From Gloeopeniophorella convolvens (taxonomy: Eukaryota > Basidiomycota > Agaricomycetes > Russulales), in NCBI GenBank assembly GCA_022496205.1, contig WTXD01000012.1:62001-126000 (forward strand): a DNA stretch of 64,000 nt, in the 5' to 3' direction. A program made the translations under genes and the position numbers. This document shows, piece by piece, positions 30,293 to 54,174 of this stretch (its first letter is position 1; each line of letters begins with the position of its first letter). The notes beneath the pieces were generated by a model that ran no database searches, was not told the origin of the DNA, and was given only the letters and a program-made list of their open reading frames with translations.

Positions 30293-32042
30293 ATGAGTTC
30301 ACTCTTCATCACCATCCCATCGACTACGACACTTCCTCTCAACCCTTCTCCCTCTCCTGCTCCTACCTGTTCAACCCTCGTGCCGGCTGCCTTGACTATC
30401 ATATCCCATAACACAATGTCAAGTGCCAGCACCAGCGCCACACCCGCTCGAGTCAAGCTAGGCACTCAACCACCTAGGCCACCCAACGCCTGGATTCTCT
30501 ACCGCTCAGAGAAGCTCCAACAACTCCCTCCTCCTCTTCCGGGAAAGCCCAAGCTGACTCAGGCCGAAGTATCAAAGATCATCTCCGCGCAGTGGAAGGC
30601 GGAAAAGGAAGATGTCCGCGCCACTTACGAAAAACGCGCCGAGATGTTCAAGGCAGAACACGCTCGAATGTACCCCAACTACCGCTTCGCTCCTATGAAA
30701 AAGGCTGAGAAGGAACGGATTCGCGAGGAGAAGCGACAGGCTCGAGACAAGGATCGCACTGAACGCAGAAAGGCAGGCCGCGCGAGGCCTTATCCCGCCC
30801 CTTCGACCGCGTCACCTTCAACAACATCTCCAGTCCCTCTCACAGCACCCTTTTTCAAGCACGAGGACGCGTCGCCACCCATCTCGAATGCGTCTTCTCC
30901 CTCTCTCGGCACACCATCCTCTACACCCGTATCGGATGCCACCGCGCTCTCTGGATCCGCGTCGCCCGCCGCGTCTTCGAACCTGCAACTCCCTTCCCCA
31001 GACTCAGATAAGGGATCGTCGCGTTCATCTCCCAATCCTGGCGACACAGTGTCCATATCAGTGCCATTGCCCGCTATTCCGGCCCGTCTTCTGCCTACTC
31101 CGCCGCAATACATTCCTCCTGAGGGCTGGCGGCCGTCCCGCTCGTCTTCTCCTTTGATATCCCTCAGCCCTCTTCACGAATCTCCCGATACCGAATGGCC
31201 ACAGAGTGGTCTGCCGGCGCTTCAGATTCCATACAGTGCTCTTTCGTCATCGCAACCCGTCGCCGAGGCACGTCTGTTCCCTAGTGTGCCTTGCGACATG
31301 ATTGATAACGGATTTGCAGGACCTCGAATTTGACCTAGCTCTTATGGACTATGAACGATGGCAGAACATAGGAGACGATTCACTACTGCCCCCGTACGAA
31401 AACGGCGTCTTGTTATCAAGCTTTCCAAACCATGATCTCACGGCCCCCCCACCCCCTAGCATTTACCTGGACGTTGGTCAGTACCCGTTGGGTACGTTTG
31501 AACCGAGCACCTCTAGCGATGCATCCTGCGGAACTAGCGGGGACACTGGCGGCATGAATTTTACGGCTGAGCAGCTCATCGCATTTGTAAATGCGTTCGG
31601 CCAGCCACAGGTGCAGCAAGAACCTGTTCCATATCTAGATGCGGCGGTTGATGCGTCTGCGCAAAGCTTCAATTTTGAAGAGTATTTGCAAGACCCCGGA
31701 GGCTCGTTCACGGGTTTTGGCTATTCTCAGGACGCGACCAGTGCTTCGTCTACCGCACAGGCCCAAGCAGCTTCGCACGCCCCGTCGCCCGCTCCCTCGT
31801 TGCAGCTTCCGGCCGCCACCCCTACACCATCATTCTACCCTGCGTCGCCTTCGCCTGCCTCTTCAGCGTCGGTGCCTTCACCTATCGCTCATGAGCCCTA
31901 TGTACCTCCGCGTGGCGCTGCGAATGTTAGTGCCCGTCGCGTGGCTGGAACGTGGAAAATTCCGATGGCTGTCTCTCAGGCTCCGTCGCCGGCGGCAAGT
32001 CATCCTGGCGTCCCAACTTCGCGCAAGCGCGCAAGAGCATGA
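30293..32042 (+). CDS. HMG-box transcription factor (MATA-HMG type)
   Basis: The HMG box lies at about residues 60-140 of the long model: PPRPPNAWILYRSEKLQQL, then KLTQAEVSKIISAQWKAEKE and YPNYRFAPMKKAEKER. This is the MATA/mating-type class of sequence-specific HMG proteins, which in basidiomycetes includes regulators of mating and fruiting. The flanks are Ser/Pro/Ala-rich, and the C-terminal half carries acidic and Gln/Ala/Pro segments typical of activation regions. The ORF begins at 30293; an internal ATG at 30416 (MSSASTSATPARVKLG) is an equally good start. Two frames are joined by an intron ending at 31319; the donor is uncertain (31286 gives only 34 nt, 31259 gives 61 nt). With the first, the product is 571 residues. 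It is not next to any homeodomain or pheromone gene here, so it need not be a mating-type locus. Confidence 0.85.
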
Positions 32043-45533: not shown

Positions 45534-46576
45534 ATGGCCACCCCGCGCGCCAAAATCGAATATGTCATCTTCGACATGGACGGTGCGTCGTCCAGCGTTC
45601 TGATCTGATCGGGCGCAGCGCCACTCATCACCACCTCTCTTGTATCGCTGCGCCCATTTCAGGCTTAATGATAGACTCGGAGCGTGTCTACACAGACGTG
45701 ACCAGTAACTAGCTCGCTCGCTCGCGGCCAGCACCACCGCGCCTCACGCCGCGCACGCAGATGACATCCTCGCCCCGTACGGCGCCACCATGACCTGGGA
45801 CATCAAAGCCGGGCTCATGGGCAAACGTGCGCCGCCTCCCGCCCCACGCACCCGCACGCGCCCTCTGACCCGCGCACGCCCACAGCCGAGCGCGCCGCCG
45901 CCGCGCACCTCCTCTCCTTCTTCCCCGACATCCCGCTCACCGTCGACGCCTACCTCGCGCAGCGCACCGCACTGCAAGACGCGCGCTGGCCGCACGTGCA
46001 GCTCCTCCCCGGCGCCGCGCGCCTCGCCGCGCACCTCGCCGCGCACCGCGTCCCGCTCGCCATCGCGACCGGCTCGACGCGGCGCAACTACGCGCGCAAG
46101 ACCGCGCACCTCGCGCGCGTGTTTGGGCTGTTCGGCGGCCGCGTCGTGTGTGGGGACGACGCCGGCGCGGGCCGCGGGAAGCCCTTCCCGGACACGTACC
46201 TCGCTGCTGCGCGCGGGCTCGGGCGCGCGGTTGGTCCGAGTGCGGAGGGGGACGGCGAGGGCGTCGGGGTGGCGGAGCGCGCTGAGCGTGGGCGGGGCCT
46301 CGTGTTTGAGGACGCGGTGCCGGGCGTGCAGGCGGGAAAGCGCGCGGGCATGCACGGTGCGTCGCGCGCCTTGTTCTCTGCGTGCTGCGCTGACTCTGCG
46401 TGCGCATAGTGGTGTGGGTGCCCGATGCGAACCTGCTCGGCGTAGAGCACGACCCGACGGCCGCGCAGCCCGACCAAGTCTTGCGCTCGCTTGAGGATTT
46501 CGTGCCCGAAGAGTGGGGGTTGCCGCCGTACGACGCGCCCCGGCTGCGGGTGCATGAGCGTGCACGTTGCGTATAG
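45534..46576 (+). CDS. HAD-superfamily phosphatase (pseudouridine-5'-phosphatase / GS1-like)
   Basis: Five exons (45534-45582, 45663-45704, 45761-45826, 45886-46356, 46410-46576) join to 264 residues. Motif I is VIFDMDGLMIDSE (nucleophile and acid/base Asp), motif II is AIATGSTRRNY, motif III is GKPFPDTYLAAARGL with the Lys, and motif IV is LVFEDAVPGVQAGKRAGM. The cap domain begins after the first Asp pair (NDILAPYGATMTWDIKAGLM). The arrangement matches HDHD1/GS1 and related sugar phosphatases such as yeast glycerol-3-phosphatase relatives; the substrate cannot be settled from sequence. An insert between motifs III and IV (GPSAEGDGEGVGVAERAERG) is longer than usual. Exon 2 is only 42 nt. Very GC-rich, like palC and the glutaredoxin. 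Confidence 0.92.
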
Positions 46577-46720
46577 TGGCGTGCTGCGCTGTTGAGCGGC
46601 TGCGGTGATATCTAGCATTGCTGTGACGAACATGAAAAAAAAAACATCTGCATTCCACAAGACTCATCTACGAGGTGCGAACAAGCGGGCCAGACTACTA
46701 CAAAGCACGGCCGAGAAACG
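46577..46720. other. Flank before the repeat array, with an A-run
   Basis: A run of ten A at about 46635-46644 lies between the phosphatase gene and the first repeat unit. Confidence 0.4.
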
Positions 46721-47490
46721 TACTCGCGAAGAGTACAGGGAGGAAAAAATTCACGACAGTCCAAGAGTAGTCTGAATCGAGTTGCACGTCTCCGAAGAAA
46801 CGCGCGCCGCGAAGTGCACTCAAGGACGCCTGCACACCACACACACCATCCACCAAAGGGCCCCTCATACGCCGCGGCCCGCCTCGGGGGCGTCCGACAC
46901 CCCCGCTCCGACTAGGCCTCCCGTAGGAGCCCATCAAGGCGCGCCGTAGCCCGCAGGGCACAGCGCAGGCGGACCGCAGACCCACATGCAACGATGCAGC
47001 CCAACACACGGCCCCGTGACGTCGCGCTGCGACACAGCCTGCAATATCCACCCGCGCCGGTTGAGGAACTCCAGTGTCCACACTACGCGGGGGTACCCAA
47101 CAGCTGTGCCGCGTCGCGCGCACCCCTGCTGGGCACAGAGATGCAACGAAGGAGCCGTGCCCGCCCGCGAGGGGCGGCTGCGGCGCGATAGGGCCCAACC
47201 CGCATGGTAGACGGCACAGCGTCGGCGCGGCAGTGCGCCCGGTCCTCGCGGCGCTCCCAAGCCCGTGCGCCCCCGTGCCCTCGAGCCCCTGGCGGGGGGC
47301 CGTCGTCGGGCGTGCGGGGGCGCGCGGGCGCGGTTTCTGGTGCGCCGCGCCGCGCGTGGGCGCGGGGCCCTGCGAGGGCCGGTCGGGGAGGACGGGACTC
47401 AGACCTTGGCCCGCTCTCGAGGGCGGCGCGGGGAGCGCCGGTGCGGGGAGAGCGTCGCGGCCTTTGGGCTGTCGTGGTTGGGATTGGGCG
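46721..47490. repeat. Repeat unit 1 (type A)
   Basis: Opens with the hairpin TACTC-GCGAA-GAGTA at 46721-46735. Then come the shared blocks AGAGTAGTCTGAATCGAGTT (46763 on) and CGCGCCGCGAAGTGCACTCA (about 46802), and later ACTCAGACCTTGGCCCGCTC (47398) and the closing GCGTCGCGGCCTTTGGGCTG. Very GC-rich. Long frames on both strands are by-products of base composition; no stable coding frame is shared by all five units. Confidence 0.8.
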
Positions 47491-47672
47491 GGCGCGCTTG
47501 CCACGCGGCGTTTTATGTGTGCGTGCGTGTTCTCCACGTGGGACTGCGCGCACGTGCGGCGTTGAAGTTTCCCACTTCTCATGTCCTTTTGTTGGGGTGT
47601 ATGGCATTTGGGACATGTGAACAGAGCAACGGATATTATTCATGAACAGAGTAGGGAAACGACTACGGAAGA

Positions 47673-48400
47673 TACTCGCGAAGAGTATGGTGAGCCCAAA
47701 AATTCACGACAGCCCGAGAGTAGTCTGAATCGAGTTGCACGCAACAAAGCGTGCGCCGCGAAGTGCACTCAAGGACACGTGCACACCGCTCGCTGGATGG
47801 CTCCTCGTACGCCGCCAGCTCCACCCGGGTCTTGTCCCACCGCCGACGGAGTCTCCCCCGCCAGCAGTCAAGCCAGTAGCCAGGCTCAAAGTGCAGCCAC
47901 GCCGCACACCGCTACAGCTCTGCATGCCCCGGAAACCCCCGCAGAGTCGACTCGGCCCAGACGTCATACAAGGGCCATCGAGCTCGGGGGCCGGTGCGGA
48001 GGCTACGGCTACTTCGCCCGCCCGTCCCCGTCGCCGTAGGTATTTCCCAAGACGATAGGACCGAGCACAGGCGCTTCGAGGAAGGGCAGATGCAGGCACG
48101 GTGTGCAGCCCCGCACGGGCAACGCAGCGCGATAGAGCCCGCCCGCTCGCAGTTGTGCGTGCGCCCAGTCCCCGCGGCAATCCCAAGCCCGCGCACCCCG
48201 CCCTCAGGCCGCAAGGCCGTCGTCGGGCATACATGAGGCTGCGGACGAATTTCTGGTGTGCCGCGCCGCGCGTGAGCGCGGGGCCCTGCTAGGGCCAATC
48301 GAGGGGGACGAGACTCAGACCTTAGCCCGCTCTCGAGATGGGGTGCCGGAAGCACCGTGCGAGGAGAGCATCGCGGCTTTCGGGCTGTCGTGGGTTGTGA
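47673..48400. repeat. Repeat unit 2 (type A)
   Basis: Same order of blocks as unit 1, with the hairpin at 47673-47687. It is closest to unit 4 (50803-51540): blocks such as CCGCGGCAATCCCAAGCCCG and GGTGTGCCGCGCCGCGCGTG are identical in both, and many differences are C/T or G/A. Confidence 0.85.
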
Positions 48401-48555
48401 AAGGGAGACTGTTGAAAAAACTAGCTGACGGTGCGCATGTCGGTCACGTGTACTCGGTAACCGGGAACCACGTGGTATAAGATATCAACGGTGCAGAACG
48501 GCCCCTTGCGAGCCATGTAAAGACAGTAGTACATCGAAGACACCCACAGAAAAAT

Positions 48556-49380
48556 GCACCCGCGAAGAGTATGCAGAGCCAAAAATTTGTGACAGCGCGA
48601 GAGTAGTCTGAGCTGGCTTCCGCGCTACGAAAGCGCGCGCCGCGAAGTAAACTCAAAGACGCTGTGCACGTGGACTGTTCAAAGGCTCCTCATACGCCGC
48701 GCGGTCGATCCAAGGCCTGCGCACCCTGGAGCCGAGCTAGAGACCACGCGCGAAGCACAGCCATACACACCACGAAACCTCCATTGGCCCGAGACATATG
48801 GTCTCGACCAATCCCCGCCAAAGACAACCGTATACCTCAGCCGGTATAGCTGCTGGGAAAGCGGCCACAAGCCCAACAGCGCCCGACTGACGCCGGAAGC
48901 CCGACACGGGGACCCAAGTGATCGACAAAATATGCCTCGCCCAACGTGGCAAATGCAGTGTGTTGCCCGAAGGCGTTTGCGGCGCGATAGAGCCTGTATA
49001 CGAATAGCCCATGTGCACAGTGCCTGGCCCTCGTGATGACCCCGAGCTCACGCGCGCTTCCCTCGGGCCACAAGGCCATCATCGGGAATACCGCGCGCGG
49101 GCATTTCCAGTGGGTTCTGGCAGAGTCTACCGGGGAGGACGAAGCTCAGACCTTAGCCCGCTCACAGGAGAGGCGCCAGAGGCACCAGTACGTGGAGAGC
49201 GTCGCGGCCTGCGGGCTGTCGAGGTTGGGGAAAAGGCGGGAATGCGCGAGGATCGTTGGTTTTTGTAGGCTGTAATTGATCTGCCACGTGGGCTACCGTG
49301 GAATATTCTACGCTCCCGTGTGTGCTGCGCTGTGCGATCTGAGGCATAGAGTTACTTCGTTCGGTTGCTTTCCTTAGCGG
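48556..49380. repeat. Repeat unit 3 (type B)
   Basis: Carries a degenerate hairpin (GCACCCGCGAAGAGTATGC) and the type B variant AGAGTAGTCTGAGCTGGCTT (48609 on). The inner part differs from type A, but the ACTCAGACCTTAGCCCGCTC block is kept near 49145. Its 3' end (GGTTTTTGTAGGCTGTAATT, then GCATAGAGTTACTTCGTTCG) matches unit 5 closely. Confidence 0.8.
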
Positions 49381-49509
49381 CGTGTCAAGGTCTTAATATA
49401 TCGGCGTTCTGAGAAGTAAAAAGGAAGCGCACGCTGAGTTTAGATCCAGGTTGCGCAGAGCGACTTGGACTGATGCAGATGATCGAACGTCGCGCAAGTA
49501 ACTCTATAG

Positions 49510-49822
49510 GAAGCTGAGCTTGTGCGGCGAGGACGTGATGCATCGTGCCGCCCTCGGGCGCCAGTCCGTCGTCGTGGCGGTCGCATCGAAAGTGAGTCTT
49601 TTTTAGGATGTCGTCCCCGGCTGGTCGGTGTTCAGGAACGATCTGGTCCCATTTGCGTTGTTCGGCGCGATCGTGCTGCTGATCGTGGAGCAGCCCGGGG
49701 ATGCTCTGGGCCGAGGACAGGCCGGCCACCCGTATCCGCGGTTGGGTCTGGTCGGCTTGTTGAGCAGGAGAGGGTTACACACCAATATCCTGCAGGTAGA
49801 AGTGGTATGTCGGGTGTCCAAT
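49510..49822 (-). pseudogene. Duplicated, decayed fragment of the CBM1-gene body
   Basis: The minus strand matches the last two exons of the CBM1 gene at 52720-53564. YHFYLQDIG survives only as a diverged nucleotide match. LNNANGTKLFLNIDQSGT appears as NNANGTRSFLNTDQPGTT, followed at once by a stop. The secretion signal, CBM1 and linker parts are absent. It stands in the same place relative to unit 3 as the intact gene stands to unit 5, which shows that it arrived by duplication of the whole block. Confidence 0.8.
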
Positions 49823-49869
49823 AACGTGAGTATTACTGAATCCGCGTGAGTAACATCGTCAGCGAGATC

Positions 49870-50750
49870 CACTGGGTGATAGTTCCCTTCAGCGTACCGT
49901 CAACCCGGGGGCGTGCTAGGCGTTGGAGGGGCAGGGTCCCAGTATGGCCGTGCGCGATTGGCCTGCTTGTAAAGTTCAGGATAAATAGTTGCACACTTCC
50001 AGATAGCTCTGTAGAGTGCCTTGAATGTGGCTCGAGAGGGGGCGGGATCGGGCCGAAGCGCTGAATTCGGATATTTGAAGGGCGAGAGGTCCCGGCGGAA
50101 GCCCCCGCAGCACACTGACACGAGGGGAGCATCGGCAGGGGCATCTGTTAGTAGAGGTTCGTGTTCGAGTGCATTGATCCCAGCGGCGTCCACTACGCGG
50201 CCACATCGAGTACTCAACTTGAAGCTCGAACTGACACCAGCGCTCCGCAAGAGGTTAAGCTTTAAGCTTTAAGTTCCGAGGTGGAGCACCTTCGAGGGAC
50301 GACCACGACATGATTGAAAGTTGAACGTGAACTTGAACTTGGGCACGTTTAAACTTTAGCGCTCGTAACGGTATCTGCCCGACCAGGTTTCGACAAGCGC
50401 TGGAAGTTAAGTGACGCACGCAGAGGATGAAAATCACGAGGCAACCCCAGGACGCGTGTCTTCGAATATGGGAGCCACCCGACAGGAGGTTGTCAAAGAA
50501 GTACTTAAGGCGACGTCTACGTGGGGACATGATTTGGAGCCTTGATCGCGGCCGTGCAAGCACGTAGTCGGGAACCGGGTGCGGGGCCGGGGACATGATG
50601 TCGGGGTCACGCGTCTCAAGCTGCAGCAAGAAATCTGCTAGTAGGTCACCTAGCATGCGCGGGCGTCAGCGAGTGACGAGTCTCCCGCTCCTCTTGTGTC
50701 CCTTCGTTAAGATAAATCCTGCCAGTATATAATACCATTTGGGACATGTA
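49870..50750. other. Spacer between the two duplicated blocks
   Basis: About 0.9 kb without a counterpart elsewhere in the window. Short AAGCTTTAAGCTTTAAG repeats occur near 50258. No gene recognised; it may mark what was inserted or kept between the two copies. Confidence 0.4.
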
Positions 50751-50802
50751 AACAAGGCGACAGGTGTTATTCATGAATGGATTAGGAAACAACTACGGAA
50801 AA

Positions 50803-51540
50803 TACTCGCGAAGAGTACTATGAACCCAAAAATTGACAACAGCCCGAGAGTAGTCTGAATCGAGTTACACGCAAAAAAGCGTACGCCGCGAAGTGCACTC
50901 AAGGACACATACACACTGCTCACTGGATAGTTCCTCGTACGCCGCTGGTACCACCCAGGGTTTCCACCCTGCTACTGACGGAGCCTTGCCACGCCAGCAT
51001 CCAAGCCAGCAGCCATTGACTCGAGGTGCGACCATGCAACACCACTACAGTTCTGCATGCCCTTACGTCCCGGATACCTTTGCTTGGTCCATCAGGCCAC
51101 TTTGGCAGCATTCAAGCTCGGGGGCTGGGGTACTCAGGCTATGGCTACTTCACCTGCCCATACCCGTTGCCGGAAGCCATCCCATTGCGAGGATGGACCG
51201 AGAAAAGGCACCTCGGGAACGGGGCAGAGGCAGACGTGGCGTACAGCCCGCAAGGGCAATCGCAGCGCGATAGAACCCACCCGCTCGCAGTAGCGCGTGC
51301 GCCCAGTCCCCGCGGCAATCCCAAGCCCGCGCACCCCGCCTTCAGGCCGTAAGGCCGTCGTCGGGCACACGCGGGGCTGTGGAAGCATTTCTGGTGTGCC
51401 GCGCCGCGCGTGAGCGCGGGGCTCTGCTAGGACCAATCGAGGGGGACGAGACTCAGACCTTAGCCCGCTCTCGAAGAGGGTGCTGGAGGCACCGTACAGG
51501 AAGAGCATCGCGGCTTTCGGGCTGTCATGGGTTGCGGAAG
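50803..51540. repeat. Repeat unit 4 (type A)
   Basis: Hairpin at 50803-50817, then the same blocks as unit 2, including the flank before it (GGGACATGTAAACAAGGCGA here, GGGACATGTGAACAGAGCAA before unit 2). Compared with unit 2 the early part shows runs of G-to-A and C-to-T change, for example CACGTGCACACCGCTCG against CACATACACACTGCTCA. Confidence 0.85.
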
Positions 51541-51723
51541 AGAGATTGTTGAAAATCGGCTGGTGCGTATGTCAGTCACGTGTACTCGGTAACCAGCAAC
51601 CGGTGACCGAAAACCAGACAGTGGTATAAGATACTATCAACAGTGGAGAACATCATGCAGAAGTGACCGGCCCCTTGCGAGCTATGGGAAAACAGCGGCA
51701 CGTCGAGGACACCCACAGGAAAA

Positions 51724-52560
51724 TACTCGCGAAGAGTATGCAAAGCCAAAAATTTGTGACAGCGCGAGAGTAGTCTGAGCTGGCTTCCGCGCTACGAGGG
51801 CGCGCGCCGCGAAATACACTCAAGGACGCTTTGCACAGACTGTTCAGAGGCCCCTCATACGCCGCGCGCTCGACCCAGGGCCTGCGCACCCAGGAGCCGA
51901 GCTCGAGGCCACGCTCGAGGCGCAGCCATCACACCACAAAAGCTCCATTGGTCGAGACATCATCCCGATCAATCCTCGCCAAAGACAACCGTATACCTCA
52001 GTCGGTATACCTGTTGGGTCGTGGCCAAACCCAGCAGAGCACAACTGACGCCGGAAGCCCGATACGAAGACCGATGATCGAGATGATATATCGCACCAAT
52101 GGAAATGCAGCGTGCTGCCCGAAGGCGTTTGCGGCGCGATAGAGCCTGTATGCGAACAGCCCGTGTGCATTCTCGATCCTTGCGGCAACCCAGAGTCCAA
52201 GCGCCCGACCCTCAAGCCATAAGGCCATCGTCGGGGATACGAGCGGGCGCATTCCCGGCGCGCTGCGCCGCAAAACGGGCATGGGGTTCTGCTGGAGTCG
52301 ATCCAGGAGAACGAACTCAGACCTTAGCCCGCTCATAAGAGAGGCGCCAGAGGCACCAGTACGTGGAGAGCGTCGCGGCCTTCGGGCTGTCGAGGTTGGG
52401 AAGAAGGCGAGCATGCGCAGAGATGGCTGGTTTTTGTAGGCTGTAGTTGATCCGCCACGTGGGCTACCGTGGAATGTTCCACGCTCCCGTGTGTGCTGCG
52501 CTGTGCAATCTGAGGCATAGAGTTACTTCGTTCGGTTGCTTTCCTTAGCGGCGTGTCAAG
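51724..52560. repeat. Repeat unit 5 (type B)
   Basis: Hairpin at 51724-51738 and AGAGTAGTCTGAGCTGGCTT as in unit 3. The inner part (CGTATACCTCAGTCGGTATA near 51991; GCGTTTGCGGCGCGATAGAG near 52127) and the 3' end closely follow unit 3. It leads directly into the 3' flank of the intact CBM1 gene. Confidence 0.85.
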
Positions 52561-52719
52561 GTCTTGATATATCTGCATTCTGAGAAGTAAAAAGGAAGCG
52601 CAAGTTGAAAATAGATACAGGTTACGCGGGGCGCCTTGAATTAATGGCCGAGTATCCACACAACGCTGACATTGGTATGCCATATGTACCATGTGTAGAA
52701 GAGCGACCATGCTCTGCGT

Positions 52720-53564
52720 TCAGCACAGGCAAGGCAGATGCAATGACGTCATCGAGCACGTCTGCCCGCTCGGCGTGTCATTGCCCTCCTGGAGGTAAAC
52801 ACTATACACCGTCGGGTCGGACGTCGCGCACGCGAGGAAGTTGAGCTCGCGCGGCGAGGACGTGATGATCGTGTCGCCCTCGAGCGCCCAGTCCGTCGTC
52901 GTGGCGGTCGCATCGAGCGTGAGCCCCTTGTAGGATGCCGTTCCCGACTGGTCGATGTTCAGGAACAGTTTGGTCCCATTGGCGTTATTCAGCGCGATCG
53001 TGCTGCCGATTATGAAGTAGCCCGAGGATACCTCTGGACCGAGGACGGGCTCGCCACCTGTTTCCGCAGTTGGCTCCGGCCGGCTTACTGAGCAGGAAAA
53101 GGTTACATACCGATATCCTGCAGGTAGAAGTGGTACGTCGGGTCGTCGTCAGAGCGAATCTGAGAACCCGTAGGCGCGGGCGCTGTGCTGGTGGTCGTTC
53201 CCGATGACGAGCTGGACTCTGTTGAAGTCGGGAACGATGGTGAGGTAGGAAACTGCGTCGTGGTTTTGGAGCTCGTGCTGGTCGGGGTAGGGATACACTG
53301 AGAATAATCTGCACTTGATTCACGAGGCTATTCACAGGGAGCAAGGAGAAACATACATTCGTTATTGAACGTGCAGGTGTACCCTGACACGCAAGTCGTC
53401 GAGCCAGACCTGCAATCCCATGTAATCTGAGCCTCGTTATGAGTCATGCACAAAGGATTGACGTACCACTCGACGCCTCCGCACTGGGCCCACGCCCCAC
53501 TCTGTGCACTGACGGCCCCAGCGAAGATGACAAGCAAACCGGCAAGAGCACTGACGCGGCACAT
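52720..53564 (-). CDS. Secreted CBM1 (fungal cellulose-binding) protein
   Basis: Four exons (complement 52720-53057, 53111-53308, 53357-53409, 53467-53564) join to 228 residues. A signal peptide (MCRVSALAGLLVIFAGAVSA) is followed by a CBM1: QSGAWAQCGGVEWSGSTTC, VSGYTCTFNNEYYSQC, with the aromatic residues and Cys pattern that bind crystalline cellulose. Next come a Thr/Ser/Pro linker (TPTSTSSKTTTQFPTSPS) and a C-terminal domain of about 140 residues (DDDPTYHFYLQDIG, SSGYFIIGSTIALNNANGTK, LACATSDPTVYSVYLQEGND) that I do not recognise as a known glycosidase. The CBM1 is split over three exons, so splicing decides its Cys pattern. The protein is probably secreted onto plant cell wall. Its 3' end touches the repeat array, and a decayed copy lies at 49510-49822. 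Confidence 0.9.
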
Positions 53565-54174
53565 AGCTACAGTAGCAATGATTCAGAAGGTATGGCGGCA
53601 AACAGCACGTGTATTAGTAGCAGGGCGGAAGCATGCGGGAGATACCTCGCATGAGTCGAAATGGTGAAGGATGAACCTCGGACACCCGGCAGTCGTACTT
53701 GTCATAGTTTTGTGGACCAAGTCATGACGTGACAGCCAACGCATTTGCGAATGACGTTATAGATATCAGAAGCCTGAAGGACAACATCTTGTGGCCCAAA
53801 GCGCAGGTCAAGAGGTCTTCGTGGCCCGCATGACCTGCCTTCTCGGTATCAGGACTCCATGTATTGGCGAATTTAATCCTTTGGCAGCCCGCACATCATC
53901 CGAATAGAATCAGTGAAGAGTAGGGACGGTGAGGCTTCTCTGGCATATTCGGGGATCGGATTTCCCAACGCCACGACCAGGATGGGCGTTGGGGCGGAAG
54001 GGCACGAGTTGCGCTCCCAACGTGGCTCGCATCCGCGTGGTTGTGTCCACGCGGTCACGTGCAAGTTGACGCGAAGTGCAACTTTTGACGCGTCCCCAAG
54101 TCGGACACCATATTGTAACACTAGCCACTACCGCCTCGATAATTCACCTCGCCCGCGCTGAAAGCTATCTCTAG
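53565..54174. other. Divergent intergenic region
   Basis: About 600 bp between the CBM1 gene (-) and the unknown gene at 54175 (+); promoters of both. A TCACGTGC box occurs at about 54055. No gene seen. Confidence 0.4.

Follow-up and report, generated by a model that had tools for sequence, protein, structure and literature searches.

Five Units on the Minus Strand of One Contig

The stretch of DNA analysed here, referred to below as the window, comprises 64,000 nucleotides of Gloeopeniophorella convolvens (C24:62001-126000, where C24 stands for contig WTXD01000012.1; a window position is the contig position minus 62000) from an assembly of 36.7 Mb in 404 contigs. It contains an array of five units starting at positions 46721, 47673, 48556, 50803 and 51724, each of which corresponds to a gene on the minus strand, and we assign these genes with near certainty to the family of nuclear ribonuclease P (RNase P) RNA. 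RNase P is the ribozyme that trims transfer RNAs (tRNAs), and the genes of the array specify its RNA part. The original prediction, made from the sequence of the window, had described five units at these starts with blocks recurring in a fixed order. Both points were borne out by repeat finding, which gave two five-copy families across the array (D1, 118 nt, and D5, 50 nt), and by the genome-wide search that it had proposed, in which unit 1 as a query returned 12 matching pieces, all on C24 (copy counts from our DNA searches are lower bounds).

The lengths of the RNAs were measured from the 5' strand of helix P1 to the end of the terminal T-run. Three genes belong to subtype A: unit 1 (46744..47474, 731 nt, ending in T6), in which conserved regions (CR) I and V, P1 and the T-run were located; unit 2 (47698..48390, 693 nt), which matches the Rfam model; and unit 4 (50828..51527, 700 nt), a segmental duplicate of unit 2. 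Subtype B consists of unit 3 (48581..49221, 641 nt), recognised by its conserved regions and its alignment with the other units, and unit 5 (51748..52392, 645 nt), a segmental duplicate of unit 3. The same split had been predicted earlier. Its B side is well founded, as units 3 and 5 group with a bootstrap of 96-100%, but the A units form no well supported clade (units 2 and 4 group at 72-82%, and the other nodes are weak).

Identity of the Units as RNase P RNA Genes

Positions 46001-54000 of the window were compared with all Rfam families using cmscan, the gathering cut-off of the nuclear RNase P RNA model (RF00009) being 28 bits. Unit 4 matched the whole model (1-301) with 44 bits over 50839-51525 of the minus strand, and unit 2 matched part of it with 40.4 bits over 48171-48304 of the same strand, a second piece giving 14.6 bits. 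A sixth unit, which lies 42 kb beyond the array (C24:156533-157117, 585 nt), also exceeded the cut-off (32.4 bits, C24:156545-157115). Unit 1 gave two pieces of 13.8 and 11.4 bits, a solitary gene on contig C57 gave 18.8 bits (21.7 in a shorter search), and no RF00009 match to units 3 and 5 was found even at E up to 10. These four genes below the cut-off or without a match were assigned to the family through alignment with the other units and through their own conserved regions. Our family models R1 and R2 matched units 1 and 3, although these models had been built partly from unit 3.

The alignment to the Rfam consensus displays CR-I (AAGGUCUGAG), the P8 loop (CCUAGCAG), ACCAGAAAU and CR-V (AUUCAGACUACUCU). 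The word GCGGGCYARGGTCTGAG, which covers CR-I and the 3' strand of P2, occurs exactly in all five units (47398..47414 in unit 1, then 48314-48330, 49145-49161, 51452-51468 and 52316-52332, minus strand). A word search placed CR-V, the 3' strand of P4 (TTCAGACTACTCT), at 46764..46776 in unit 1 and at 47717-47729 and 50847-50859 in units 2 and 4, and the same word with C as its first base at 48600-48612 in unit 3 and 51767-51779 in unit 5, all on the minus strand.

The blocks listed in the original prediction are these very regions when read on the reverse strand: AGAGTAGTCTGA is CR-V, CGCCGCGAAGTGCACTCA belongs to the CR-IV region, ACTCAGACCTTAGCCCGCTC is CR-I with the 3' strand of P2, and CGCGGCCTTTGGGCTG holds the 5' strands of P2 and P1. 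Its suggestion of a macrosatellite misses this correspondence. It had also offered a decayed multicopy gene family, and the family is indeed multicopy with some decayed members, but it is a family of non-coding RNA genes. A match to a known family, which the prediction had named as refuting it, was likewise obtained, and it is to RNase P RNA instead of a transposon or a ribosomal DNA (rDNA) spacer. The Rfam scan found no match to RNase MRP RNA (RF00030) in the array; genome-wide, the only match above the cut-off is a separate gene at C246:140586-140941 (101.9 bits).

Anatomy and Fold of the RNAs

The elements follow one another in the order P1, P2, P3, CR-I, specificity domain, eP15-like helix, CR-IV, eP19, CR-V, P1 and T-run. 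In the array, the loop enclosed by the eP15-like helix is variable and 183-316 nt long; the helix itself reads GGGCCC/GGGCCC in unit 1, GGGCTC/GAGCC in units 2 and 6 and GGGTTC/GAACT in unit 4. CR-I and CR-V pair with each other to form P4, at 8/8 positions in every one of units 1-6 and in the C57 gene, and pairing was found in 51/54 cells of P1, 42/42 of P2 and 38/42 of proximal P3. Taken over P1, P2, P3, P4, eP15 and eP19, with the C57 gene left out of P1 and eP15 and P8 standing outside the count, 304/314 cells pair and 23 changes are two-sided, figures which depend on helices and registers chosen by hand, leave relatedness uncontrolled and are inflated by the shifted eP19 of subtype B, which adds many two-sided changes. 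Column shuffles gave means of 282 paired cells and 7 two-sided changes, and 0/2000 shuffles attained either observed value.

The specificity domain of subtype A has 4-5/5 pairs in P8 together with the CR-II word ACCAGAAA and CUUGGGA, so that P8, CR-II and CR-III are all present. In subtype B, P8 has 3/5 pairs and the motifs of this domain are altered, and the same trio was not found in units 3 and 5. Unit 3 retains the catalytic domain; its P8/P9 and CR-II/CR-III region is altered, and it shows a 24-nt gap relative to unit 5.

Signals Outside the RNA

A T5-T6 run follows P1 in 6/6 units (1-6). Upstream of the 5' end of the RNA, all six carry CACGTG, at -66, -60, -69, -55, -69 and -55 in units 1-6; within the window, the word stands at 47535..47540, 48445-48450, 49285-49290, 51577-51582 and 52456-52461 on the minus strand. 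A 20-bp slot in this DNA would contain CACGTG by chance with a probability of 0.007. The RNase MRP RNA gene also carries the word, at -61, and the C57 gene has CATGTGATGTG at about -71; for the U6 genes inspected, CACGTG was not found in the 200 nt that precede the gene.

The conserved hairpin of the original prediction (TACTCGCGAAGAGTA) lies past the T-run, by 8-10 nt in units 1-6 and by 11 nt in a deleted seventh unit, and thus sits outside the RNA. On the minus strand of the window, it occupies 46721..46735, 47673-47687, 48557-48571, 50803-50817 and 51724-51738; it is perfect in units 1, 2, 4 and 5 and altered in unit 3. As TCGCGAG is found at the equivalent place in the C57 gene, the hairpin element may be old. 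The idea that such a hairpin is a general feature of polymerase III genes was rejected, because only 2/12 U6 loci and 6/25 distinct tRNA loci have it. At a threshold of a stem of at least 5 bp within 40 nt after the T-run, it was present in 5/7 array copies and in the MRP gene and not in the C57 gene, and in 16/82 background T5+ runs. The U6 count keeps allelic duplicates, and the tRNA count is what remains of 30 loci after the removal of one truncated where its contig ends, one lacking a T-run and three duplicates.

Beyond its T-run, the MRP RNA gene (C246; locus L037, after 860) carries a hairpin of 5-6 bp (GACAG-TTCGA-CTGTC) that resembles the one in the array; it may be there by chance, since stems of this kind follow roughly a fifth of the T-runs here. 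As for the U6 genes, at least 12 loci were counted in the genome. Pairs of U6 genes and of tRNA genes recur at near-equal spacing on C113/C300 and C71/C101, which suggests that these contigs are allelic.

Duplication History and Other Members of the Family

Units 2-3 with a gene fragment (about 47605..49815) and units 4-5 with a fuller copy of that gene (about 50736..53143, reaching its 3' side) were identified by self-comparison as the two halves of one segmental duplication. The gene carried along (52888-53564; diverged fragment at 49561-49830) encodes CBM_1, a cellulose-binding domain of fungi, at 53.4-53.6 kb (27.6 bits against a cut-off of 20.6). This domain and the nuclear RNase P, MRP and U6 RNAs of the genome agree with a fungal source. 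Between the duplicated blocks, no clear signal of repeat-induced mutation was seen (C>T and G>A changes 156, opposite changes 124; CpG observed/expected 1.07-1.09).

The family on C24 has seven members. Unit 7 (locus L009 5345-5600, at C24:157.3-157.6 kb) is a deleted gene that has an A-like 3' end (L009 5345-5459), next to it 93 nt that match the subtype B loop at 80%, and then a 5' remnant; neither alignment nor the family models found CR-I in it. This A/B chimera indicates recombination between copies. From unit 6 on into unit 7 (L009 4811-5456), the sequence is colinear with units 1-2 (47149-47778) at 72%, and both clusters therefore descend from one A-A tandem.

The original prediction had also proposed a novel non-autonomous element, which is not supported. 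A mobile element made from RNase P RNA in the manner of a short interspersed nuclear element (SINE) has in its favour that SINEs are known to arise from polymerase III RNAs. We regard this as very improbable. With the exception of the C57 gene, all members fall in a stretch of about 49 kb on a single contig, and the homology runs through the spacers and the neighbouring gene fragment, unlike an insertion. Copies confined to two clusters of one contig, with homology through the spacers, show the pattern of segmental duplication and lend no support to a non-autonomous element. DNA searches of the genome found no dispersed copies; target-site duplications were not searched for, because the unit borders lie inside duplicated blocks.

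The solitary gene (C57:205546-206449, minus strand; locus L040) is 904 nt long and deeply diverged from the array. It has an 11-bp perfect P1, CR-I, the P8 loop CCCTAGCAGGG, a CR-IV close to the consensus, CR-V and a T7 run. The exact CR-I/P2 word occurs at 7 places in the genome, namely units 1-6 and the C57 gene, and the CR-I pattern with one mismatch at two further places (C334, C355). CR-V-like words were surveyed at 18 loci and recognised in 12, six being missed by the pattern and some one-mismatch places lying outside the sample; the C57 locus was the only one of the 12 with CR-I upstream. The DNA of the C57 gene, used as a genome query, matched itself only, and in the search for further RNAs the metazoan model of signal recognition particle (SRP) RNA gave no match. 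Contamination is an unlikely source of the gene, as its contig is 567 kb long and shares a repeat with C103. By sequence comparison, the genome holds two deeply diverged lineages of RNase P RNA genes, one in the array and one solitary.

Constraint on the Two Subtypes

Divergence was compared between the duplicates of each subtype; in these tests, one pair stands for each subtype, sites are treated as independent, the limits of the regions were set by us, and gene conversion is able to mimic constraint in both comparisons. In the pair of units 2 and 4, the core has 29/328 changes (8.8%) and the gene fragment and spacers have 84/447 (18.8%), p = 8.5e-5, and 100/291 sites of the eP15 loop are changed. 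The same pair has 18/189 changes in the catalytic domain and 14/174 in the specificity domain. The pair of units 3 and 5 has 9/191 changes (4.7%) in the catalytic domain and 40/143 (28%), with 33 further gap columns, in the specificity domain, where the two subtypes differ at p = 6.6e-6. So subtype A was held over the whole core and subtype B in the catalytic domain only. As the constraint on B has been lost from the domain that recognises tRNA, units 3 and 5 are probably decaying or diverted copies, not ordinary RNase P RNAs.

One could regard the whole array as a cluster of pseudogenes, dying duplicates beside a C57 gene that makes the working RNase P RNA. The completeness of the C57 gene described above speaks for this, as do the plainly dead unit 7 and the lack of an intact P8 in subtype B. 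In 20 metazoans that carry duplicates of the RNase P RNA gene, the promoter was kept by one copy only (PMC2996960). Nevertheless, we consider it unlikely: the core of units 2 and 4 changed half as fast as their flanks, the CR-II of the A copies in the array is nearer the Rfam consensus than that of the C57 gene, and each of units 1-6 has both the upstream CACGTG and the T-run.

Subtype B allows for another possibility, namely a new lineage-specific RNA, an incipient third member of the RNase P/MRP class, which would have kept the catalytic domain and the promoter, released the tRNA-recognising domain and, like MRP RNA, worked with the shared proteins on another substrate. It would agree with the uneven divergence of units 3 and 5 and with their 5' flank, which changed less than the neutral flank (22/221 versus 84/447, p = 0.003; for subtype A, 13/71, p = 1). 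Archaeal type P RNAs lack nearly all of the specificity domain (PMC4919922). This proposal seems doubtful, however, and less probable still than the pseudogene cluster, as it rests on two sequences and gene conversion at the ends could yield the same pattern, recombination between units being demonstrated by the chimeric unit 7. In addition, subtype B departs from the consensus next to CR-V, with CAGCTCAGAC in place of CGATTCAGAC.

We favour the reading that the array consists of RNase P RNA genes of which at least one A copy is probably functional. Several points weigh against it, including the choices behind the pairing count described above. Units 1, 3 and 5 and the C57 gene stay below the Rfam cut-off, units 3 and 5 with no match at all. 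No array copy has a CR-IV that agrees with the Rfam consensus, AGUgCAAUG: the array has AGUGCACUU or variants with at least one conserved base changed (AGUGCAC in units 1, 2, 4 and 6), and the C57 gene has AGUUCAAUU, also given as AGUUCAAU. The 5' flank (13/71) and the hairpin-terminator stretch (6/36) of units 2 and 4 changed at the rate of the neutral flank. The catalytic domain of unit 4 changed faster than that of unit 2 (branch 0.114 versus 0.013), so the reading does not require all A copies to work. Finally, the solitary C57 gene could do all the RNase P RNA work.

The array is best read as a small family of nuclear RNase P RNA genes that multiplies by local duplication and occupies the minus strand of a fungal chromosome. 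RNA polymerase III would transcribe each unit, its promoter lying upstream with CACGTG near -55 to -69, and the transcript would end at the T5-T6 run. The A-type RNA would fold into a catalytic domain (P1-P4, eP15, eP19) and a specificity domain (P8-P12) and assemble with the proteins shared by RNase P and RNase MRP, and the resulting ribonucleoprotein would cut the 5' leaders off tRNA precursors. The analysis establishes the family, the elements of the fold, the number of copies, the history of duplication and the constraint on the core of subtype A; transcription, assembly and activity are predictions read from the genes themselves.

Elsewhere in the window, the open reading frame at 30293-31333 (plus strand) resembles, by eye, an HMG-box protein of the mating-type kind.

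Comparison with Known Systems

RNase P RNA is usually regarded as the product of a single, essential, slowly changing gene. The RNA found here is known; its copy number and divergence are unusual. No report of a fungal RNase P RNA array outside rDNA with two diverged lineages was found in the literature searched, which lacked most subscription journals and gives no proof of absence. Such a birth-and-death array, with constrained, domain-released, chimeric and deleted copies, is a natural series that lets one ask in what way a ribozyme of this kind becomes duplicated and whether RNAs like MRP could evolve anew, and most of it is missed by the Rfam cut-offs. RNase MRP RNA is an ancient paralogue which has the common plan of the catalytic domain and lacks the RNase P specificity domain. 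Subtype B is likewise without that domain but retains CR-I and CR-V of the RNase P type, and MRP RNA has its own gene in this genome. If subtype B were indeed a new RNA, the origin of RNase MRP would have a recent counterpart here, in a genome whose ordinary RNase P would also be divided between one solitary gene and one of the array.

In Auricularia and Inocybe, RNase P RNA genes of about 300 nt lie in the rDNA spacer, one per repeat, together with MRP and SRP genes (PMC9849065). These Agaricomycetes also have more than one copy, there through the repetition of rDNA, whereas the present array lies outside rDNA and consists of strongly diverged genes of 585-731 nt. The multicopy genes of arthropods lie inside host genes and lack polymerase III signals (PMC4287351); they share local duplication or multiplicity with our array, which differs in its T-runs, its common upstream CACGTG and the lack of an evident host gene. 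Metazoan duplicates and pseudogenes collected with Bcheck likewise stand as extra copies alongside a functional gene, but only one copy per genome has kept a functional-looking promoter (PMC2996960), while the promoter word is present here in 6/6 full-length array copies. In Candida glabrata and N. delphensis, the RPR1 RNAs are oversized (1368 nt in N. delphensis); like the RNAs of the array, these are nuclear RNase P RNAs of fungi with large inserts (PMC3847288). Those are single genes, whereas in this array the insert lies in the eP15-like helix and is different in each copy.

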